A stretch of DNA of 48,640 nucleotides from Hydrogenimonas thermophila (GTDB lineage: Bacteria; Campylobacterota; Campylobacteria; Campylobacterales; Hydrogenimonadaceae): the NCBI RefSeq assembly GCF_900115615.1, contig NZ_FOXB01000014.1, forward strand, positions 1-48,640, read 5' to 3'. The notes beneath the pieces were generated by a model, which had not been told where the DNA came from, did not search any database, and saw nothing but the letters and a program-made list of their open reading frames with translations. Shown in pieces: positions 1,949-48,640 of the stretch (its first letter is position 1; every line of letters begins with the position of its first letter). A program made the translations under genes and the position numbers.

Positions 1949-3976
1949 TTAACTATTCAAAGAGATCCAAAAAATAGCTGTAGTACCTTTTACTTCACCT
2001 TCGCTTTCAAGGTAAACATCTCCTCCCAAAATATGAGCCATCTTTTTACTCAAAGACAAACCAAGTCCAGTACCTTTATGACTTTTTTGCATAACATTTT
2101 CTACTTGTGTAAAATCACTAAAAAGTTTTGACAAATTCTCTTTTGATATTCCTATGCCTGTATCTTTAACTTTTATGTAGAGTCTATCTTGTTCAAAATA
2201 TAGCTTTATTTCAATAAATCCTTTAGCAGTAAATTTCACTGCATTTGATACTAGATTGACAACAACCTGTTTAAACATTTTAGGATCAGTTTTAACTATG
2301 GTGTCTTCATCAATATCTGTTTCAAACTTAAACTCTACTCCTTTTTGCTCTGCCAAATGCTTTAACATTTCAATAATACTTTTAACAAGAGAAACAATCT
2401 TAACATCTTCAGGTTTTGCTTCCATTTTACCTGACTCTATTTTTGCAATATCCAAAATATCGTTTATCATACTCAAAAGATATTGTGCTGATGACTCTAT
2501 ACTTGCTACAATGTCATACTGTTCTTCATTTAAATCTTCATAAGCTATAAGATATTGTGTAAACCCAATAATTGCATTTAGAGGGGTACGCAGTTCGTGT
2601 GACATATTTGAGATAAATGCAGATTTAGATCTTGAAGCTGCCATTGTTTTTTCTATTAGATGTATCCTATCAAGTTGAAGAGAGATCATCTTTGCAATAG
2701 ATTCATAAAATTTTCTCTCATTTGGATCTACCAAATGCTTTTTATCTAGTAAAATAGCACCAAAATACTCTTTTTCACCGCTTTCAAAATTACTGACATA
2801 TAATCCTATAGCACCCTCATCATTAACTTTTTCCTGAGTAAATTTAAGCTCACTATCTTTTGTCAACTCTTTTATATTCTCTAATGATACATTTATACAG
2901 TCTTTCTCATTCTGTGTCTGCATAATACTGTTAAAAATATCAATCAACTGTATAAAACGCTGTAATCTTATTTTATTCTCTTTTTCTAAATTCTTTAAAG
3001 CTCTGTTTGTCATTTGAAGCATTAGGTTAAAAGAGTTACTTAACTTTGCTATCTCATCTTCTGTATATATGGAAATATGTGTAGAAAAATCTTGTGTTCT
3101 TGTTATTGTATCTGTCAGTGATGTTAAATCTTCAATAGGACGCATTATAGATTTAGAATATTTCAATGCAATTACAATTATCAAAATTATTACTACAGGA
3201 ATCATATAGAGCATAAAGTGTAAAAAGTCATACAAAAAAGCTAATGCAACATCTTTCTTTACGGCATAAACTATATACCATCCATCAAGAAATTTTTTTA
3301 ATGCTTTATAAACAATAAGATGATTATGATCAATTAGGTCACCCATTCTACCCTTATAGTCAATTGAGAAACTCATTGCTTTACCAATTATATATCTATT
3401 ATCTGGACTTATAATAAATGAGTGTATTTCTCCATTACTACTTAAAAAAAGATTTAAATTATTAAGATTATATGCAAGTACTATTGTTCCAAGTTCAGTT
3501 GATCTGTCAAAACTTGCTATGACTTTTGCATAAAAATATAGTGTTTTTTCTTTTATATAGAAACCATTTGCACTTTGTGAATTAAAAGAGATAAAATCAG
3601 AATAATTTTTTGTTGATGATGCAACTAAATTGCCTTTAGTATCTAAGATGTAAAGCACTGCATCCAATTCTAAATCTTTTGCTTTCTGCTCTAAAAGTCT
3701 TGTTAATCTTTTATCTATATCTTCTGTTACAATATCATCCATTAACTCAAGACGACTTAAAAAAATAACCTCTTTATTTAGCTGAGACAGATGCATATCT
3801 ATTAATCTCTCCATCTCATCTATTCTCAAATACTGCTCACTTATACTCTTTTGAACTATTTTGTTTTCGCTTAAAAAGAGCATATAAACAAAAAAGGCAG
3901 TATATGGAATAAAACCAACTAATATAAATGCTACAATAAGAATATTTCGAAGAGATTTTCTAAAAATTTTAAACAT
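1949..3976 (-). CDS. Membrane sensor histidine kinase (Cache-like/HAMP/GAF-like/HisKA/HATPase)
   Basis: The 675-residue product has one membrane helix at about 12-34, a large periplasmic region resembling a Cache sensor, a second helix at about 254-272, a HAMP-like segment, a GAF-like region at about 342-440, and then the kinase core. The HisKA motif FISNMSHELRTPLNAIIGF contains the phospho-accepting His460; the HATPase N box (NLVSNAVKFT) and G boxes (DTGIGI, GTGLGLSLSK) are intact. There is no attached receiver. The ATG at 3976 overlaps the upstream response-regulator gene by 8 nt; a longer version would need a TTG at 4000. The overlap implies translational coupling with the HD-GYP regulator, its likely partner. 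The periplasmic ligand is unknown, but the co-encoded phosphate-binding-like protein is a candidate upstream component. Confidence 0.9.
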   Translation of the reverse strand: MFKIFRKSLRNILIVAFILVGFIPYTAFFVYMLFLSENKIVQKSISEQYLRIDEMERLIDMHLSQLNKEVIFLSRLELMDDIVTEDIDKRLTRLLEQKAKDLELDAVLYILDTKGNLVASSTKNYSDFISFNSQSANGFYIKEKTLYFYAKVIASFDRSTELGTIVLAYNLNNLNLFLSSNGEIHSFIISPDNRYIIGKAMSFSIDYKGRMGDLIDHNHLIVYKALKKFLDGWYIVYAVKKDVALAFLYDFLHFMLYMIPVVIILIIVIALKYSKSIMRPIEDLTSLTDTITRTQDFSTHISIYTEDEIAKLSNSFNLMLQMTNRALKNLEKENKIRLQRFIQLIDIFNSIMQTQNEKDCINVSLENIKELTKDSELKFTQEKVNDEGAIGLYVSNFESGEKEYFGAILLDKKHLVDPNERKFYESIAKMISLQLDRIHLIEKTMAASRSKSAFISNMSHELRTPLNAIIGFTQYLIAYEDLNEEQYDIVASIESSAQYLLSMINDILDIAKIESGKMEAKPEDVKIVSLVKSIIEMLKHLAEQKGVEFKFETDIDEDTIVKTDPKMFKQVVVNLVSNAVKFTAKGFIEIKLYFEQDRLYIKVKDTGIGISKENLSKLFSDFTQVENVMQKSHKGTGLGLSLSKKMAHILGGDVYLESEGEVKGTTAIFWISLNS

Positions 3977-4943
3977 CTTTATGTGCTTCTTTAATTGCAA
4001 TTACCTTATCAATATTTTCTAAAAATAGTGACAATATTTCAGGATGAAAATGTTTTCCGCTGCCATCTTTTAAAATTTCAAGAGTCTTTTCTATGCTAAA
4101 TGCTTTTTTATACGGTCTTTCACTTGTCAATGCATCAAAAACATCGGCAATTGCTACAATAGCTCCGCTTTCAGGTATTTCATCTCCTTTTAAACCTCTT
4201 GGATACCCACTACCATCATACTTTTCATGATGAGTATATGCAATTTCAGCAGCAAGTTTTAAAAGAGGAGTCTCTTTATGTGTTAAAAGTTGATAACCAA
4301 TATATGCATGGTTTTTCATTATTTCAAACTCATCTTCTGTGAGTTTTCCAGGTTTTAAAAGTATTGAATCGGCAATTCCCACCTTGCCTACATCATGCAT
4401 TGGAGCCGTAAGACGCATCAATTCTACACGCTCGTTGTCCCATCCCCATAATTTTGCTAAAAAGGCAGAAAACTCACCTACTCTTACAGTATGCTGAGAT
4501 GTCTCATTGTCACGATACTCTGCCATTTTTGCCATAATACATAAAATCTCTTTTTCACTTTTACTATTTTGTAATCTGCTCATTTTCAGAGCATTACTTA
4601 TTCTTAATCTAAACTCTATAAGATCAAATGGTTTTAAAAGATAGTCATCTGCTCCTAATGACAAACCTTTATGTATAGCCTCTTTATCTGATAATGCCGA
4701 GATAATAATAAGTGGAATTGTAGCTGTATTTTCATTCTCTTTTATCTTTTTTGTAGCTTCAAAACCATCCATAACAGGCATCATTAGGTCCATAAGTATT
4801 AAGTCAAAACTCTCATTATCCAATAAAGCAAGTGCCTCTTCTCCGTTTTCTGCTTCAACGACTTCATACCCCTCTTTTACCAATATTTTACTAGCCAATT
4901 TCCTATTCATCATCTCATCATCACACAAAAGTACCCGTTGCAT
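3969..4943 (-). CDS. Response regulator with HD-GYP c-di-GMP phosphodiesterase output
   Basis: The N-terminal receiver has the acidic pair in LLCDDE, the phosphorylation site Asp52 in LMDLMMP and Lys104 in LLKPF. The C-terminal half is an HD-GYP domain: HDVGK at about 183-187, LLKPGKLTEDE, the metal-ligand His in MKNHAYIG, and HHEKYDGSGYP at about 238-248 with the diagnostic GYP. All expected catalytic residues are present, so c-di-GMP hydrolysis (as in RpfG-type proteins) is likely. I prefer the ATG at 4943: it overlaps the previous stop as TGATG and has GGAGAG a few bases upstream; an ATG at 4955 would add four residues. Membership of a tight four-gene run with a kinase, a periplasmic binding-like protein and an outer-membrane barrel argues for a sensing pathway. 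Confidence 0.92.
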   Translation of the reverse strand: MQRVLLCDDEMMNRKLASKILVKEGYEVVEAENGEEALALLDNESFDLILMDLMMPVMDGFEATKKIKENENTATIPLIIISALSDKEAIHKGLSLGADDYLLKPFDLIEFRLRISNALKMSRLQNSKSEKEILCIMAKMAEYRDNETSQHTVRVGEFSAFLAKLWGWDNERVELMRLTAPMHDVGKVGIADSILLKPGKLTEDEFEIMKNHAYIGYQLLTHKETPLLKLAAEIAYTHHEKYDGSGYPRGLKGDEIPESGAIVAIADVFDALTSERPYKKAFSIEKTLEILKDGSGKHFHPEILSLFLENIDKVIAIKEAHKDV

Positions 4944-5347
4944 CAATCTCTCCATTTGTATATGATTTTTATCTCATCATCTACCATATCTGCTTCAATA
5001 TAGCCTATGGCTCCTTCAATCTTTTTAACAAAAGCTTTTACACTTTTTTGAGATTTCATTTTTAGAGGCGGTCTGCGTCCTAAATAGTGCTGTTTTGTCC
5101 AATAAGCTTTAAGCCTACTGTGTCCCATTTTTAAAACTCTCTCTTCAAAAGATTTTCTAATTAAAGAAGATGCTGACAAATTAACAGGAACAAGGAGCAT
5201 ATTGTTTAAAATAGTAATTTTTTTAAGATAAATTGCACGAATCTGCTTTTCAGAAAGAGGTGGCATACTCTTTTGAGCAATAACAGCATATTCGGCTGAC
5301 CAAGAAAAAGATAAAATTAATAAAAAGATCAACACAAACTTTTTCAT
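4943..5347 (-). CDS. Small phosphate-ABC-type periplasmic binding-like protein
   Basis: The 134-residue protein has a signal peptide (about residues 1-17, cut near SWSA/EY). The mature part shows the pattern of small stand-alone PstS-like domains: LSEKQIRAIYLKKI, LVPVNLSASSLIRKSFEERVL, YWTKQHYLGRRPP and a terminal GAIGYIEADMVDDEIKII. It is far shorter than a true transport PstS (about 300 residues) and covers only one lobe, so a sensing or presenting role is more likely than bulk uptake. Its gene overlaps the HD-GYP regulator (TGATG), tying it to the signalling pair. No phosphate permease genes are nearby. The ligand is not determined by the sequence. Confidence 0.75.
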   Translation of the reverse strand: MKKFVLIFLLILSFSWSAEYAVIAQKSMPPLSEKQIRAIYLKKITILNNMLLVPVNLSASSLIRKSFEERVLKMGHSRLKAYWTKQHYLGRRPPLKMKSQKSVKAFVKKIEGAIGYIEADMVDDEIKIIYKWRD

Positions 5348-15148: not shown

Positions 15149-16627
15149 ATGACAAAAAAATTACTCTCAACAGTTACTGCAGCTGCAGTTTTAACTACAG
15201 GCGCAATGGCATATGAAGTCAGTGATCTGCACTATTTAGATAACAATACCACTAGTTATGAGACAACCGACAAATTAGAGCACTCTTTAGAGTATTCAAA
15301 AAATCTTAATGGTGATGCTCTACTCTTCCCAGCATTTTATGCCGGTGGTGGGTTTACAACAGAGATAAAAATCATTAATACTAGTGGTCAATACTCAAAT
15401 GTTGCAAAAGTGATCTTTTTTGAGAAAGAGACATCAAAAGAGATAATGGATTTCAATGTATATCTATCAGCCCATGATGTTTGGACAGCACAAGTTGTAG
15501 AGAAAGATGGTAAATACTATATTGAGTCTACAGACAACTCTAGTCCTCTTGAGACAATCAACTATGAAATGGCAAGTATAGAACACCCTCTAAGTGTAGA
15601 GATTCCATCGAATGCAGGTTATTTTGAAGTTGTAAAAAGTGTTGTTGTTAACAATGATTACCACGGTCAACACTTAACTCTTAGACAAGATTATAGTGAG
15701 TGGGCTACAAAAGTCAGAACGGGTGGACTTACAACAGCAATACTTATTGATGATGGAATATTTGCACATGTAACAAGTCCAAGCATTGATACTGTAAATA
15801 CCGGTACAGTATTTGGTGACAATGTAGAGGTACTGGCAAAATATGCAACACTGGTAGGTGAAGTAAAAATCATCAATACCATCACAAAAACAGCTATGAC
15901 TATTCCACCTGTATATTATGATTATAACAACCCTGAAACAGGGCTTGTTTACCTTGAAGGTGAAAAAGGAAATATGATTGATATTACACTTGGAAGAGAT
16001 GCCAACGGTATGCTTCAATATGGTGTAAACAAAACACTTGGTCAGTGGCTTGATGATCTTGAATCAAAAGATTTGGATGATGTGATCATAGCTTATGACA
16101 ATGAAGATGCAATTGATAATAACTTACTTCTAATGACTTCACCTTTCAAAAGAACTATCATTCAAAAAATGAATTTTGCTCCAAATACAAATGATGGTTT
16201 GGTAGCTTTAGATGCCGCTAATCCAGCAGATAGATTTGATGGAGCAGAAGGCAGAAAACTCTTTGAAGGAGTTCAAACAGATGAAAATGGAGAGATCACT
16301 AACTTTGGTCAATACAAAGCTTTTGCAGCTATCTACAACAATAATGAGACTGAGTTTAACAGTATTGCATTCTCCCCTGCTCTTCCAAGCTATCTGACAT
16401 TTACAAAAGAGGTGCAATCAAGTGAGAGCATAGATGTAACACTGTCAACCTACATAAGAGAAGCAATAGCTCAAGATGCAACTTTTGCAAACGGTGGGTA
16501 TGTCTTGGTTGATTTTGATAAAGCCGGATACGATGTACCATCTATAGCTACCCAAATGGTAGGAACATATGTAGAGGGGCAAGGCGTTACAAACTGGGTC
16601 TATCCAGCTATCAATATTCAAAAATAA
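15149..16627 (+). CDS. Exported protein of unknown function
   Basis: The 492-residue product (from ATG 15149) has a classic signal peptide MTKKLLSTVTAAAVLTTGAM ending in AMA, then a mature part rich in Asn, Thr and Asp. A segment GDALLFPAFYAGGGFTTEIK followed by IINTS begins the globular part; similar starts occur in exported proteins of unknown function in marine Campylobacterota, as far as I recall. No enzymatic motif, membrane anchor or lipobox is seen. AAGGG lies 8 nt before this ATG, while an upstream ATG at 15119 has no ribosome site and would put charged residues before the signal peptide. It heads a plus-strand run with a lipoprotein, a PpiC-type isomerase and a small exported protein. 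Confidence 0.75.
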   Translation: MTKKLLSTVTAAAVLTTGAMAYEVSDLHYLDNNTTSYETTDKLEHSLEYSKNLNGDALLFPAFYAGGGFTTEIKIINTSGQYSNVAKVIFFEKETSKEIMDFNVYLSAHDVWTAQVVEKDGKYYIESTDNSSPLETINYEMASIEHPLSVEIPSNAGYFEVVKSVVVNNDYHGQHLTLRQDYSEWATKVRTGGLTTAILIDDGIFAHVTSPSIDTVNTGTVFGDNVEVLAKYATLVGEVKIINTITKTAMTIPPVYYDYNNPETGLVYLEGEKGNMIDITLGRDANGMLQYGVNKTLGQWLDDLESKDLDDVIIAYDNEDAIDNNLLLMTSPFKRTIIQKMNFAPNTNDGLVALDAANPADRFDGAEGRKLFEGVQTDENGEITNFGQYKAFAAIYNNNETEFNSIAFSPALPSYLTFTKEVQSSESIDVTLSTYIREAIAQDATFANGGYVLVDFDKAGYDVPSIATQMVGTYVEGQGVTNWVYPAINIQK

Positions 16628-16675: not shown

Positions 16676-17512
16676 ATGCAAAAAAAGAGACTACTTATTA
16701 CAATGTCAGCCGCAGCAGTTTTAACTTTTAGTGGATGTGGTGGAGGTAGTGATGATTCAGCAATAAACAGCACTACAGATACACAAACAGCACCTGTAGA
16801 AGCTGCAAGTACAGATATCCAGGTAATTGATGGATATGTTATAGGAGCAACTGTTACAGCACTGAATGATTCTACTTGTAGCTCCATTACCCAAACTGAA
16901 GGGCATACTACTCTTCAATGTGAACTTGAAGGATTTAAGACAGTTGGAGGAAAAATAGATGTCAATCAAAACGGCATAGCAGATGTTACAGAGCCAACTG
17001 CACCAAATATGGTTGCACCTGCTGGATACAGTGTAGCTACACCTTTTACAACACTAATAGCAACAGGTAAAGTAACAACTGAACAGATCGCTACAACTCT
17101 TGGAATTAGTGCAGAAGAGGTAATGTCAGATCCTTACTCAACTAACAATATCGACCTTGCTAAAGCTTACAACTTGGTAGCAGCAGCATTACTGAACAAT
17201 GCTGCTGATTTGATGGCAGATAAAATAGTTGAGGCTTCTGCAACACAAACTATGTCACCATCTGCAATAGATATTGATCTGCTCACCTCTATGGTAAAAG
17301 ATGTATTAGCAACAAGTGTAGCTGTAGAATATATCTCTGCTTATAGTCTCTATATAGATTCAATTGCAGCATTAGAAGCAAATTCATCAGCTGAACTTGA
17401 TCAAAGTATAGCAGAATTAAGAGATAACCTGGAAATAGAAAAAGCTTTAGATAGCTCAGATACGGTAACTGATCAAGAAAACATTACCGGTACACTATTG
17501 CCTGCATTATAA
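16676..17512 (+). CDS. Lipoprotein of unknown function
   Basis: The 278-residue product has a signal peptide with lipobox FSGC (Cys21) followed by a GGGSDDS linker, a very common surface-lipoprotein start. The next part (IDGYVIGATVTAL, GGKIDVNQNGIADVTEP) looks like a small beta domain with an Asp/Asn-rich loop that could bind Ca2+; the remainder is helical and rich in Ala, Ser and Thr (VATPFTTLIATGKVTTEQIA). Similar domain order is seen in carboxypeptidase-regulatory-like surface lipoproteins, but I do not recognise a specific family. It lies 48 bp after the preceding exported-protein gene and AAGGAAAT precedes the ATG. Likely an envelope partner of that protein. Confidence 0.7.
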   Translation: MQKKRLLITMSAAAVLTFSGCGGGSDDSAINSTTDTQTAPVEAASTDIQVIDGYVIGATVTALNDSTCSSITQTEGHTTLQCELEGFKTVGGKIDVNQNGIADVTEPTAPNMVAPAGYSVATPFTTLIATGKVTTEQIATTLGISAEEVMSDPYSTNNIDLAKAYNLVAAALLNNAADLMADKIVEASATQTMSPSAIDIDLLTSMVKDVLATSVAVEYISAYSLYIDSIAALEANSSAELDQSIAELRDNLEIEKALDSSDTVTDQENITGTLLPAL

Positions 17513-44528: not shown

Positions 44529-45731
44529 TTAATACAAAAAACCAAAAAGCCAAAGAGGGATAACATTTTTATCTCCTATTTCGATGTCGTCTTTTACAAT
44601 AAAACCATTTTCAATATTTTTAATCTGTTTTTTTGTTTTGTTTTTCCCACCAACTTCAAAAGTATATTCATTTACTGTAAAATCACCTTTTGGAGGTGCA
44701 TATATTTCATGCCCTTCAAGCATAGAAGCGAAAAATACTTCTCTTATTGAGCCAATTTCTTGTGTTTCACAATAACAAAAATGAAGATTGGTGTTATTAA
44801 GATATATTTTTTCAGGTTTAGTAAGAATTGCATCTTTTTTATTGGCACTTTTTATAAGTCTGATTATTTTGGCTTTTTGCAGTAATTCTAAATATTCATA
44901 AATTTCAGCATAAGAAGTTTTTGCCATATCCATTTTTGTTAGAAGTTCTTGCATATTTGGTTTAAAAGGATGTGAAGAACAGATATATTCTATAAGTTTT
45001 TTAAATTTTCTTATTGTAGTGAATTTTATATTTGATATTGCTGGTATATCAACTTCCAATACTACATTTATTGTCTCTTTGAGTTTTAAAAGATATGAGC
45101 TAATATCACGATTTTGAAAATAAAAAGGATAATATCCAACTTCGAAATACTCTTTAAAATCAGGTAATAATGAAGGTTTATTAATTTTTTCCATAATCTC
45201 AAAAGCTATATTTACATGATTTTTAATCAACTCATCTAGTGTAATACTCTCTATTTCAAAACCATACTTAAAATTCAAAAACTCCCTAAAAGACATCCCT
45301 TTAACTTCTTTTAGCAACACTCTTCTACTTAAATCAGCTTTTGCATTGTTTATAGATAATACACTGCTACCACTTACAATAACTCTTAAATCAAAAATAT
45401 CATAAATGTTTTTGAGCTCTTTTTCGAAATTTTGATATTTATGAATTTCGTCTATTATTAACAGTTTGCCATTTTCTTTATAAAAAGCCTCAGCAATTTC
45501 AAACAGACTCTCCCCATCAATCCAGTCGGCACTGATATATAGTTTTTCATTTGCCAAGATTTCTGATTCTTTTAAATATTGAAGAAGTGCAGTAGTTTTA
45601 CCAACACCTCTTGCTCCTATAATTGCCAAAAGCTTTTCGTTATTGTTTAACTCATTGTAAAAATATCTTTTATGCGTAGTTTTTAAATTTCTAACAATTG
45701 CACTTTGAAAAAGCCTTAATCTATTTAACAC
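44529..45731 (-). CDS. AAA ATPase with DUF4143 domain
   Basis: The 400-residue protein has an N-terminal AAA_14-type ATPase with Walker A AIIGARGVGKTTALL, Walker B KLLIIDEIHKY and sensor-like RVIVSGSSVLS, followed by a C-terminal DUF4143 nuclease-like region (VNEYTFEVGGKNKTKKQI, with E-x-GGKNK resembling the ExK motif of restriction-like folds). Such ATPases are frequent, patchily distributed accessory genes; roles in mobile elements or defence are suspected but unproven. The start is GTG 45731 with AAAGGA 5 nt upstream. It lies at the end of the block just before the CRISPR array. Confidence 0.85.
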   Translation of the reverse strand: MLNRLRLFQSAIVRNLKTTHKRYFYNELNNNEKLLAIIGARGVGKTTALLQYLKESEILANEKLYISADWIDGESLFEIAEAFYKENGKLLIIDEIHKYQNFEKELKNIYDIFDLRVIVSGSSVLSINNAKADLSRRVLLKEVKGMSFREFLNFKYGFEIESITLDELIKNHVNIAFEIMEKINKPSLLPDFKEYFEVGYYPFYFQNRDISSYLLKLKETINVVLEVDIPAISNIKFTTIRKFKKLIEYICSSHPFKPNMQELLTKMDMAKTSYAEIYEYLELLQKAKIIRLIKSANKKDAILTKPEKIYLNNTNLHFCYCETQEIGSIREVFFASMLEGHEIYAPPKGDFTVNEYTFEVGGKNKTKKQIKNIENGFIVKDDIEIGDKNVIPLWLFGFLY

Positions 45732-45958: not shown

Positions 45959-48305
45959 GTTTCAACTCCCATAGGAATACTTCAAACGCTCCTCCAACTT
46001 CTCTTTCATCGCCTGTCCGTAGTTTCAAATCCCATAGGGATACTTCAAACGTAAGTCCTTGAAATCCAAGAATACCTATTTCAAGTTTCAAATCCCATAG
46101 GGATACTTCAAACAATAAATGCTCTAATATATTAAAAGCATTAGCAAAAGTTTCAAATCCCATAGGGATACTTCAAACGGATGCTGGTCTGTTTGAATAT
46201 TTGAAGGCTATTGGTTTCAAATCCCATAGGGATACTTCAAATTAATGCTAAGAGTTATTACGCTTAGACAGACCTAGTTTCAAATCCCATAGGGATACTT
46301 CAAATCTTGCAGACAAACTCTATTATGAGAATATTTTAAAAGGTTTCAAATCCCATAGGGATACTTCAAATTCCAGTATCCACAGGTACTTTTGCTCTGG
46401 CTTCTTGTTTCAAATCCCATAGGGATACTTCAAATCTTCCCCGAAAGAAGAGAAGATTTTAGAAAGATAGGTTTCAAATCCCATAGGGATACTTCAAATT
46501 CGCCATCTGCCCACGGTCAGCGATTTGGTAATAGCGTTTCAAATCCCATAGGGATACTTCAAATTTTGAGATGAGTACAGACAGAAACAGTGTGACCTAG
46601 TTTCAAATCCCATAGGGATACTTCAAATGAAGATAAAACATTATGTTAGGTATGTTGATGACTTTGGTTTCAAATCCCATAGGGATACTTCAAATTCTGT
46701 AGAAAAACTTTTTAATATCTAGCTTTGCAGTTTCAAATCCCATAGGGATACTTCAAATTGAGATAGGCAGGATAATAGGCGCGTGGATCAATAAATGTTT
46801 CAAATCCCATAGGGATACTTCAAATATTTGGTGTATCTGCTTTTGATAGCAATGGTAAGTTGTTTCAAATCCCATAGGGATACTTCAAATGTATTTTGAA
46901 TTTAAAGATGGCAAGAAAAACGAAAAAGGTTTCAAATCCCATAGGGATACTTCAAATCAAAAAAAAGCCTAACTATGTCGGACGATTACTTGTTTCAAAT
47001 CCCATAGGGATACTTCAAATCTCACTCGTTAGCTGTTTAAAATACTCTTCATCGGTTTCAAATCCCATAGGGATACTTCAAATTACATTCGTCATTAAAA
47101 AGAGTGTGCGAGATAGAGCGTTTCAAATCCCATAGGGATACTTCAAATATAATCAGACCAGTACAACTGCCACCACTGCAATTAGGTTTCAAATCCCATA
47201 GGGATACTTCAAATCATTTGCGTGGAACCACAGAACCACCCCAGCCGGTTTCAAATCCCATAGGGATACTTCAAATCGGCTGAAACGGAAAAAGTAGCTG
47301 TTATTGTAGCCAGTTTCAAATCCCATAGGGATACTTCAAATGGTTGCTGATACGATAGATGATCAGACATATTATGAGTTTCAAATCCCATAGGGATACT
47401 TCAAATTCGAATATCAAGGGGACAACCGCCACTAGTTTAGAGTTTCAAATCCCATAGGGATACTTCAAATGGTGAATGGGTAGCACCAAAGTGGATGGTA
47501 GACAAGTTTCAAATCCCATAGGGATACTTCAAATGGATACTGGCTTGGATGTCAGTGACCTAGCTGATAGTTTCAAATCCCATAGGGATACTTCAAATTC
47601 AATATGAAGGAGATTAAATGAGTTTAAAAAGTGGTTTCAAATCCCATAGGGATACTTCAAATAGTAGTGAAGATTACGCTTTCCAAGAGGCTACCATGTT
47701 TCAAATCCCATAGGGATACTTCAAATACGATAGCCTTCAAATATTCAAACAGACCAGCATCCAGTTTCAAATCCCATAGGGATACTTCAAATTGGAGATT
47801 GCAGGATGACTATTTGTAAAAACAGAGGTTTCAAATCCCATAGGGATACTTCAAATTCTGAGTTGATGTTTTCCCATCCAGCATCGCATAGGTTTCAAAT
47901 CCCATAGGGATACTTCAAATAAAGCCCACATAGCCAGTAGCAGCGTATAGTTCATGTTTCAAATCCCATAGGGATACTTCAAATTGGTGGTTGGAGCTGT
48001 TCGAGCGTCTGCAAAACCTTGTTTCAAATCCCATAGGGATACTTCAAATTATGAGTTTCTTCCAGGTGTTGAAGATGTGAAGGGTTTCAAATCCCATAGG
48101 GATACTTCAAATTTTTATAGATGTAAAAGCTGAAGGAACTATGACTATGTTTCAAATCCCATAGGGATACTTCAAATTATATGCCCATTTCTTCTTAGAT
48201 AGCTTCGCCCACCGTTTCAAATCCCATAGGGATACTTCAAATTCATTGCAACAATAGGCGACCAAACATACTATGAGTTTCAAATCCCATAGGGATACTT
48301 CAAAT
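45959..48305 (-). CRISPR. CRISPR array, 37 repeats and 36 spacers
   Basis: The 29-nt repeat reads (plus strand) GTTTCAAATCCCATAGGG then ATACTTCAAAT; it holds the small palindrome ATCCC-ATA-GGGAT. Spacers are 33-38 nt, mostly 34-36. Read on the minus strand the repeat ends in GATTTGAAAC, the GAAAC 3' end typical of type I and III crRNA repeats, so transcription is probably leftward with the leader to the right. The left-most repeat (45959-45987) has several changes and the first four repeats end CAAAC, not CAAAT, which marks the old trailer end. From 46214 on the repeats are essentially invariant. Spacers read through as coding, suggesting phage or plasmid genes. No cas gene is in the window. 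Confidence 0.97.
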
Positions 48306-48553
48306 AAAAGCCGTTTTATAAGAAACAACTTAAACGGCTGAAATTTTAAAAAAAAACATACCTTTTTGTTTCATTTTTAAAACACTTCAAAACTGCGAAG
48401 TGTTTTGATGATGAAACATAAGTTTCATCAATAACACTAACAAGGTATCGGCTTGTAGTTTAATAGAGCCGATATAGTTTGATTTTTGTTGTTGTGTTAG
48501 CTCTTTAACAATTCATTGTCAATGGCACAAATACAATCAAGAGGAAGTGCTAT
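48306..48553 (-). other. Non-coding region with four hairpins: CRISPR leader and/or IS-encoded RNA
   Basis: No gene is seen here. Four successive inverted repeats occur: AGCCGTTT/AAACGGCT (48309-48339), AAAACACTTC/GAAGTGTTTT (48379-48406), TGATGAAAC/GTTTCATCA (48409-48430, loop ATAA) and TATCGGCT/AGCCGATA (48446-48474). An A9 run lies at about 48349-48357. The first hairpin abuts the array and, read on the minus strand, is followed by TTTT, so it could terminate transcription from the transposase side. The region is where the leader should be, but it also follows a probable IS110-family recombinase end, where IS1111-type elements encode a structured guide RNA. Confidence 0.5.
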
Positions 48554-48640
48554 CTATTTTGTTGGTTGTGCAACAAATACTCTCTTAGGATCATAAGGTG
48601 TATTATGCACATAGATTGCATAGATAATCTGCAATAGTTT
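48554..48640 (-). CDS. Probable IS110-family transposase, C-terminal fragment (start outside window)
   Basis: On the minus strand the last 28 codons before TAG read KLLQIIYAIYVHNTPYDPKR and VFVAQPTK. The pattern KLL-x-IIYA-x5-TPYDP matches the C-terminal end of IS110/IS1111-type recombinases (typically KLL-x-IxYAxxKxxxPYDP). The rest of the gene lies beyond the right edge. The call rests on this short segment only. Confidence 0.5.
   Translation of the reverse strand, partial: KLLQIIYAIYVHNTPYDPKRVFVAQPTK

Follow-up and report, generated by a model that had tools for sequence, protein, structure and literature searches.

The spacers of Hydrogenimonas thermophila very probably represent ordinary type I-B CRISPR memory whose main recorded enemy is one tailed phage lineage with an active diversity-generating retroelement (DGR). 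This identifies the phage to which more than half of the bacterium's spacers trace, and the result is a natural host-phage pair in which CRISPR memory and programmed hypermutation are readable from the same few contigs. The window that we analysed, 48,640 nucleotides, is the entire contig C14 of the 2.44 Mb draft genome. A CRISPR array lies at its right end, with a repeat unit made up of 28 bp and one further base, C or T; the first repeat (45959) is degenerate, and the left end is the oldest end of the array. The array, its flank and the two spacers considered first are as follows:

45959-48305, minus strand: CRISPR array of 37 repeats (GTTTCAAATCCCATAGGGATACTTCAAA + C/T on the plus strand) and 36 spacers
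48306-48640, minus strand: leader-side flank of the array, reaching the contig end; orientation from the PAM
46629-46666, minus strand: spacer 11; exact match in the YVDD motif, residues 293-304, of the reverse transcriptase (RT) of a phage DGR; PAM TTA
46696-46729, minus strand: spacer 12; match in motif A, residues 221-231 (AKLDIRKFFYR), of the RT gene matched by spacer 11, on the opposite strand; PAM TTA

Two adjacent spacers match the active site of one phage RT

Spacers 11 and 12 had been predicted from the window alone to encode the two catalytic motifs of a single RT, and both readings were correct at the exact coordinates. Spacer 11 (38 nt) encodes KIKHYVRYVDDF in plus-strand frame 2, and on the minus strand spacer 12 (34 nt) encodes AKLDIKKFFYR in the one frame that is open. 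When IMG/VR was searched for the spacer 11 peptide with degenerate codons, 16 contigs were recovered; two of these, IMGVR_UViG_3300023507_000110 (L012) and IMGVR_UViG_3300009408_000277 (L027), contain the exact spacer 11 sequence (L012:4733-4770 and L027:3106-3143, 0 mismatches each). As anticipated, each of these contigs carries both protospacers, and in each a single RT gene is matched by the two spacers at its active site, in motif A and YVDD. The flanking PAM is TTA for spacer 11 and for spacer 12. The spacer 12 site at L012:4517-4550 has five mismatches, of which three are synonymous, one changes K to R and one lies just outside the codons shown; the L027 RT gene is likewise matched with five mismatches. 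An exact degenerate-codon search with the spacer 12 peptide found only contigs L028 and L029, neither of them an exact match, and L028, with four mismatches, is the best spacer 12 match anywhere. The exact source of spacer 12 was absent from the collections searched (best 4-5 mismatches), and the spacer must derive either from a phage variant or from a time when the RT gene had yet to diverge.

The catalytic residues of the phage RT are D224 (motif A) and D302-D303 (YVDD). The distance between the motifs, expected to be 80-130 codons, fell just under that range (72 codons between motif starts; 78 from Asp224 to Asp302). The original prediction had also proposed two closely spaced uptake events. 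Uptake from an RT-bearing phage is upheld; however, at least 28 uptake events can be traced to the lineage, of which this pair makes up only two, and, because spacer 12 has five mismatches, one infection need not have supplied both spacers.

We conclude that the RT matches of spacers 11 and 12 are not due to chance, because spacer 11 is exact, spacer 12 falls in the same gene, and shuffled spacers give no matches: composition-matched shuffles of all 48 spacers in the genome's two arrays yielded 0 matches at ≤8 mismatches in 1.0 Mb and 0 matches at ≤9 mismatches in 2.3 Mb. A blastn search of spacer 11 against INPHARED phages gave weak chance matches only. The host genome carries no detected phage copy. 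Spacer 11 was found in the array only, a DNA search of the host genome with the DGR cassette recovered spacers only, and the host genome had no match to the phage RT or the phage head protein. RT relatives with 67-75% identity occur on contigs from Campylobacterales and from Sulfurovum genomes, as well as in one genome of the same order.

The targeted RT is assigned to a DGR

As judged from its genes and repeats, the targeted element is a DGR, with an RT of the DGR clade. This was one of the classes originally offered, and it proved to be the right one: avd and a template repeat/variable repeat (TR/VR) pair lie beside the RT. The gene order in L012 is target gene (2114-3448), avd (3466-3858) and RT (3858-5123). 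Both repeats are present, with the VR forming the 3' end of the upstream target ORF 2114-3448 and the TR overlapping the start of the RT frame. Within the scored 60-nt stretch, TR and VR differ at 11 positions in L012 and 17 in L027, all at template A, with 0 other mismatches. The small ORF is Avd, matching bAvd PF22296 above cut-off (Pfam 6e-17) and phrog_3206, "Avd protein of DGR" (PHROGs 7e-19). The RT carries an IGNLLSQ motif and matches phrog_1423, a phage RT family, at 2.7e-117. Its best PDB match is 8ub7, at 199 bits versus 70 for a group II intron RT, with retron-type RTs also far behind; we take 8ub7 and its sister entries to be BPP-1 DGR RT complexes. The template-encoded stretch of the RT frame matches the Major Tropism Determinant (Mtd) 1yu4, and a PDB search with the target gene sequence gave no good match.

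The element shares with phage DGRs of the BPP-1 kind a target gene with a 3' VR, avd, TR and RT, A-specific mismatches, and the matches of the phage RT and template-encoded stretch to 8ub7 and Mtd. By contrast, the TR of these phages falls within the RT reading frame, at its 5' end (L012 sequence), and the host group here is Campylobacterales-like.

L012 and L027 are near-identical contigs from different metagenomes that differ almost only in the DGR VR (L012:3344-3448). They differ at 17 positions, 14 of which are in the VR at template A's, and are otherwise 99.6% identical. The concentration of differences in the VR at template A's is direct evidence that the DGR is active in nature, and the phage DGR is diversifying in the environment.

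More than half of the spacers match one tailed phage lineage

We scanned all 48 spacers against every sequence fetched. Four contigs (L012, L027, L131 and L134) account for 28/48 spacers at ≤7 mismatches, with no matches for shuffled spacers at ≤8. Among these 28, 25 are within three mismatches and 14 are exact; 20 are from the 36 in the window array and eight from the 12 in the second array, and the remaining 20 of the 48 spacers were unmatched. L131, which encodes major head, neck, major tail and tape-measure proteins, and L134, which encodes terminase, share their source metagenome with L012, and the end of L131 overlaps the end of L012 (72 nt, 97%). Assignment of L131 and L134 to the same phage genome as L012, with the contigs as fragments of it, rests on the shared sample, the end overlap and the gene order of relatives. 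The lineage is tailed, with an HK97-type head.

The RT is matched by four spacers, 11 and 12 together with neighbours c3 and c4 of the second array; avd is matched by two (13 and 15) and the target gene by one (10). The remaining lineage spacers match structural genes and others nearby. Further spacers of the window array are:

46179-46213, minus strand: spacer 4; tape-measure gene, exact (L131:1510)
46500-46535, minus strand: spacer 9; major head protein gene, 2 mismatches (L131:5569)
46565-46599, minus strand: spacer 10; DGR target gene upstream of the VR, 0 mismatches (L012:3188-3222)
46759-46796, minus strand: spacer 13; avd, 7 mismatches in L012, peptide EIGRIIGAWINK versus EIGKIIGAWINK; flank TCA
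46891-46928, minus strand: spacer 15; avd, 2 mismatches, PAM TTA (L012:3717-3754)
47021-47054, minus strand: spacer 17; terminase large subunit gene, exact (L134:956)
47342-47377, minus strand: spacer 22; tape-measure gene, exact; same site as second-array spacer c8
47727-47763, minus strand: spacer 28; spacer 4 protospacer, opposite strand, 34/35 reverse-complement identity
47793-47827, minus strand: spacer 29; phage, exact; runs from the end of the tape-measure ORF into the start of the one that follows
47921-47955, minus strand: spacer 31; major head protein gene, exact
48050-48083, minus strand: spacer 33; phage gene directly 3' of the DGR RT, exact
48178-48213, minus strand: spacer 35; small ORF upstream of the tape-measure gene, 1 mismatch (L131:2403)

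Spacers 4 and 28 capture both strands of a single tape-measure protospacer, each with a TTA PAM, and spacers 22 and c8 represent a single site taken in two variants. Peptide matching of the leftover spacers showed a resemblance of spacers 23, 25 and 36 to the L012 tape-measure region, with scores (36, 39 and 35) that do not pass the null maximum of 40, and these spacers are uncounted. Spacers 22, 36 (48243-48276) and c8 (L011 ~16164-16199) apparently represent one phage site (..DQTYY) in three variants, although spacer 36 is too diverged on score alone. In the second array (L011:15879-16680), spacers c1-c7 are all from the same phage strand, and the four newest, c9-c12, match nothing found. 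Searches with the spike-like ORF and with the ORF after the tape-measure gene returned the known contigs and one distant relative only.

The host carries a complete type I-B system

The host's defence is a complete type I-B CRISPR-Cas system. The second array, on contig C27, has 13 repeats with an identical repeat and lies directly after a complete cas operon in the order Cas6b, PD-T4-5-like ORF, Cas8b, Cas7b, Cas5b, Cas3b, Cas4b, Cas2b and Cas1b. PADLOC models on this contig were matched for Cas8b, Cas7b, Cas5b, Cas3, Cas6, Cas4, Cas1 and Cas2. The ORF between cas6 and cas8b (L011:7672-8397) resembles PD-T4-5, a phage-defence type.

A 5'-TTA sequence flanks 24 of the 28 best protospacer places on the crRNA strand, versus a 2.5% background; the exceptions are spacer 13 (TCA), spacers 27 and 34 (TTT) and c1 (TAA). 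We assign the minus strand of the window as the crRNA strand because of the 5'-TTA PAM in the protospacer flanks, and the newest end of the array is therefore at the right. The degenerate repeat at the left end agrees with this direction, and the minus-strand repeat end, ...ATTTGAAAC, also supports the minus orientation. On the crRNA strand the PAM is found on the 5' side of the protospacer, as expected for type I-B. Protospacers occur on both strands, with a DNA-type PAM.

With other type I-B systems (Cas8b/Csh1, Csh2, Cas5b, Cas3) this one shares a full set of effector and adaptation genes, repeats that end in GAAAC on the crRNA strand, and one 5' three-base PAM. It differs in that the PAM is apparently TTA, the leaders of the two arrays are dissimilar, and a PD-T4-5-like ORF lies inside the operon. 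A comparison of the leader-side flanks of the two arrays (L011:15743-15878 and window 48306-48640) detected no similarity, though the repeat and the target phage are common to both.

The DGR is not evidently a favoured target

Spacer positions showed no enrichment in the DGR when tested by length and by PAM sites. With 27 spacers placed on joined coordinates, the RT has four versus 2.3 expected by length (p = 0.20) and the whole DGR cassette seven versus 5.5 expected by length (p = 0.31); within L012, avd and RT together hold 6/15 spacers versus 3.8 expected by PAM sites (p = 0.16). No spacer matches the VR, and this absence is uninformative because the VR holds just 4/289 PAM sites. Spacers that are neighbours in the window array tend to map close together in the phage (p = 0.02), with no clear tendency in the second array (p = 0.27), and priming is a plausible cause of the clustering. 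Targeting of the RT active site follows incidentally from the dense coverage, with no evident selection.

We envisage that Cas1-Cas2-Cas4 would have taken spacers from phage DNA during repeated infections by diverging variants, and that partly matching spacers may have primed further uptake, helping many spacers from one element to accumulate. Cascade-Cas3 would then destroy phage DNA at any matching site; the match to the RT active site is incidental because cleavage of the phage DNA anywhere suffices. The DGR could vary the receptor-binding protein, and would leave intact the RT, avd, head and tail sites held in the array.

Alternative explanations

It is very unlikely that CRISPR aims selectively at the DGR machinery, with blocking of tropism switching, or hits to constant DGR parts, being especially protective. 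Such aim would account for the four RT, two avd and one target gene spacers across the two arrays, and for the run of spacers 10 to 15, of which five (10-13 and 15) lie in the cassette, but the length and PAM-site tests show no excess, and type I interference destroys DNA wherever it is matched. The broader proposal, that hosts of DGR phages gather spacers in constant DGR parts (RT, avd, target body) against tropism switching, so that arrays would be a selected record of DGRs, we regard as improbable.

Ordinary memory of a DGR phage also accounts better for the origin of spacers 11 and 12 than does derivation from another RT class (group II intron, retron or abortive-infection RT) on a plasmid or in the cell. 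The YxDD and DIxxFF motifs are common to all these classes, and the best NCBIfam match is a group II intron RT model; however, the score for that model, TIGR04416, is 116 bits where the cut-off is 300, among solved structures 8ub7 comes closest with group II intron and retron-type RTs far behind, and the exact spacer 11 match sits in an RT accompanied by TR, VR and avd. A different RT class therefore has hardly any chance of being the source. RT-Cas1 fusions exist in other CRISPR systems (PMC11014452, PMC5513706) and could in principle have taken both spacers from RNA. Here, a 335-aa Cas1b that lacks an RT domain is the sole Cas1 found, an RVT_1 search of the genome found none, no RT is fused to or beside cas1, and protospacers with a DNA-type PAM are present on both strands, making uptake from RNA by an RT-Cas1 type complex vanishingly improbable.

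Relation to known systems

CRISPR arrays dominated by one phage lineage arise through repeated or primed acquisition. The arrays described here share with them the many spacers, the use of both strands and the recapture of the same sites in variants; they differ in that the phage carries a working DGR, and variable and constant target regions are separable for that reason. PMC7521656 is one example of work on adaptation in a I-B system. A literature search found no paper describing CRISPR targeting of DGR parts as such; in PMC8144416, spacers are used only for host assignment and host-range estimates of DGR phages, and in PMC6401485 retroelement variation of tail fibres comes up in passing only. 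The case is a clear, well-resolved further example of a known phenomenon: a type I-B system giving immunity against a phage lineage that bears a DGR. It provides IMG/VR fragments that lacked an assigned host with a probable one, and offers a view of a DGR in mid-diversification in the environment.

Sequences flanking the arrays

An ATPase-like ORF of 400 aa (44529-45731, minus strand) adjoins the window array. On the other side, an Rfam search of the flank (48306-48640) gave no match. Within that flank, the stretch at ~48488-48530 resembles L011 ~16780-16830 (GTTGTGTTAGC...GTCAATGGCACAAAT), and both array-bearing contigs end soon after it. The window copy includes CTCTTTAACAATT, and the stretch may be an rRNA operon leader that recurs in the genome.
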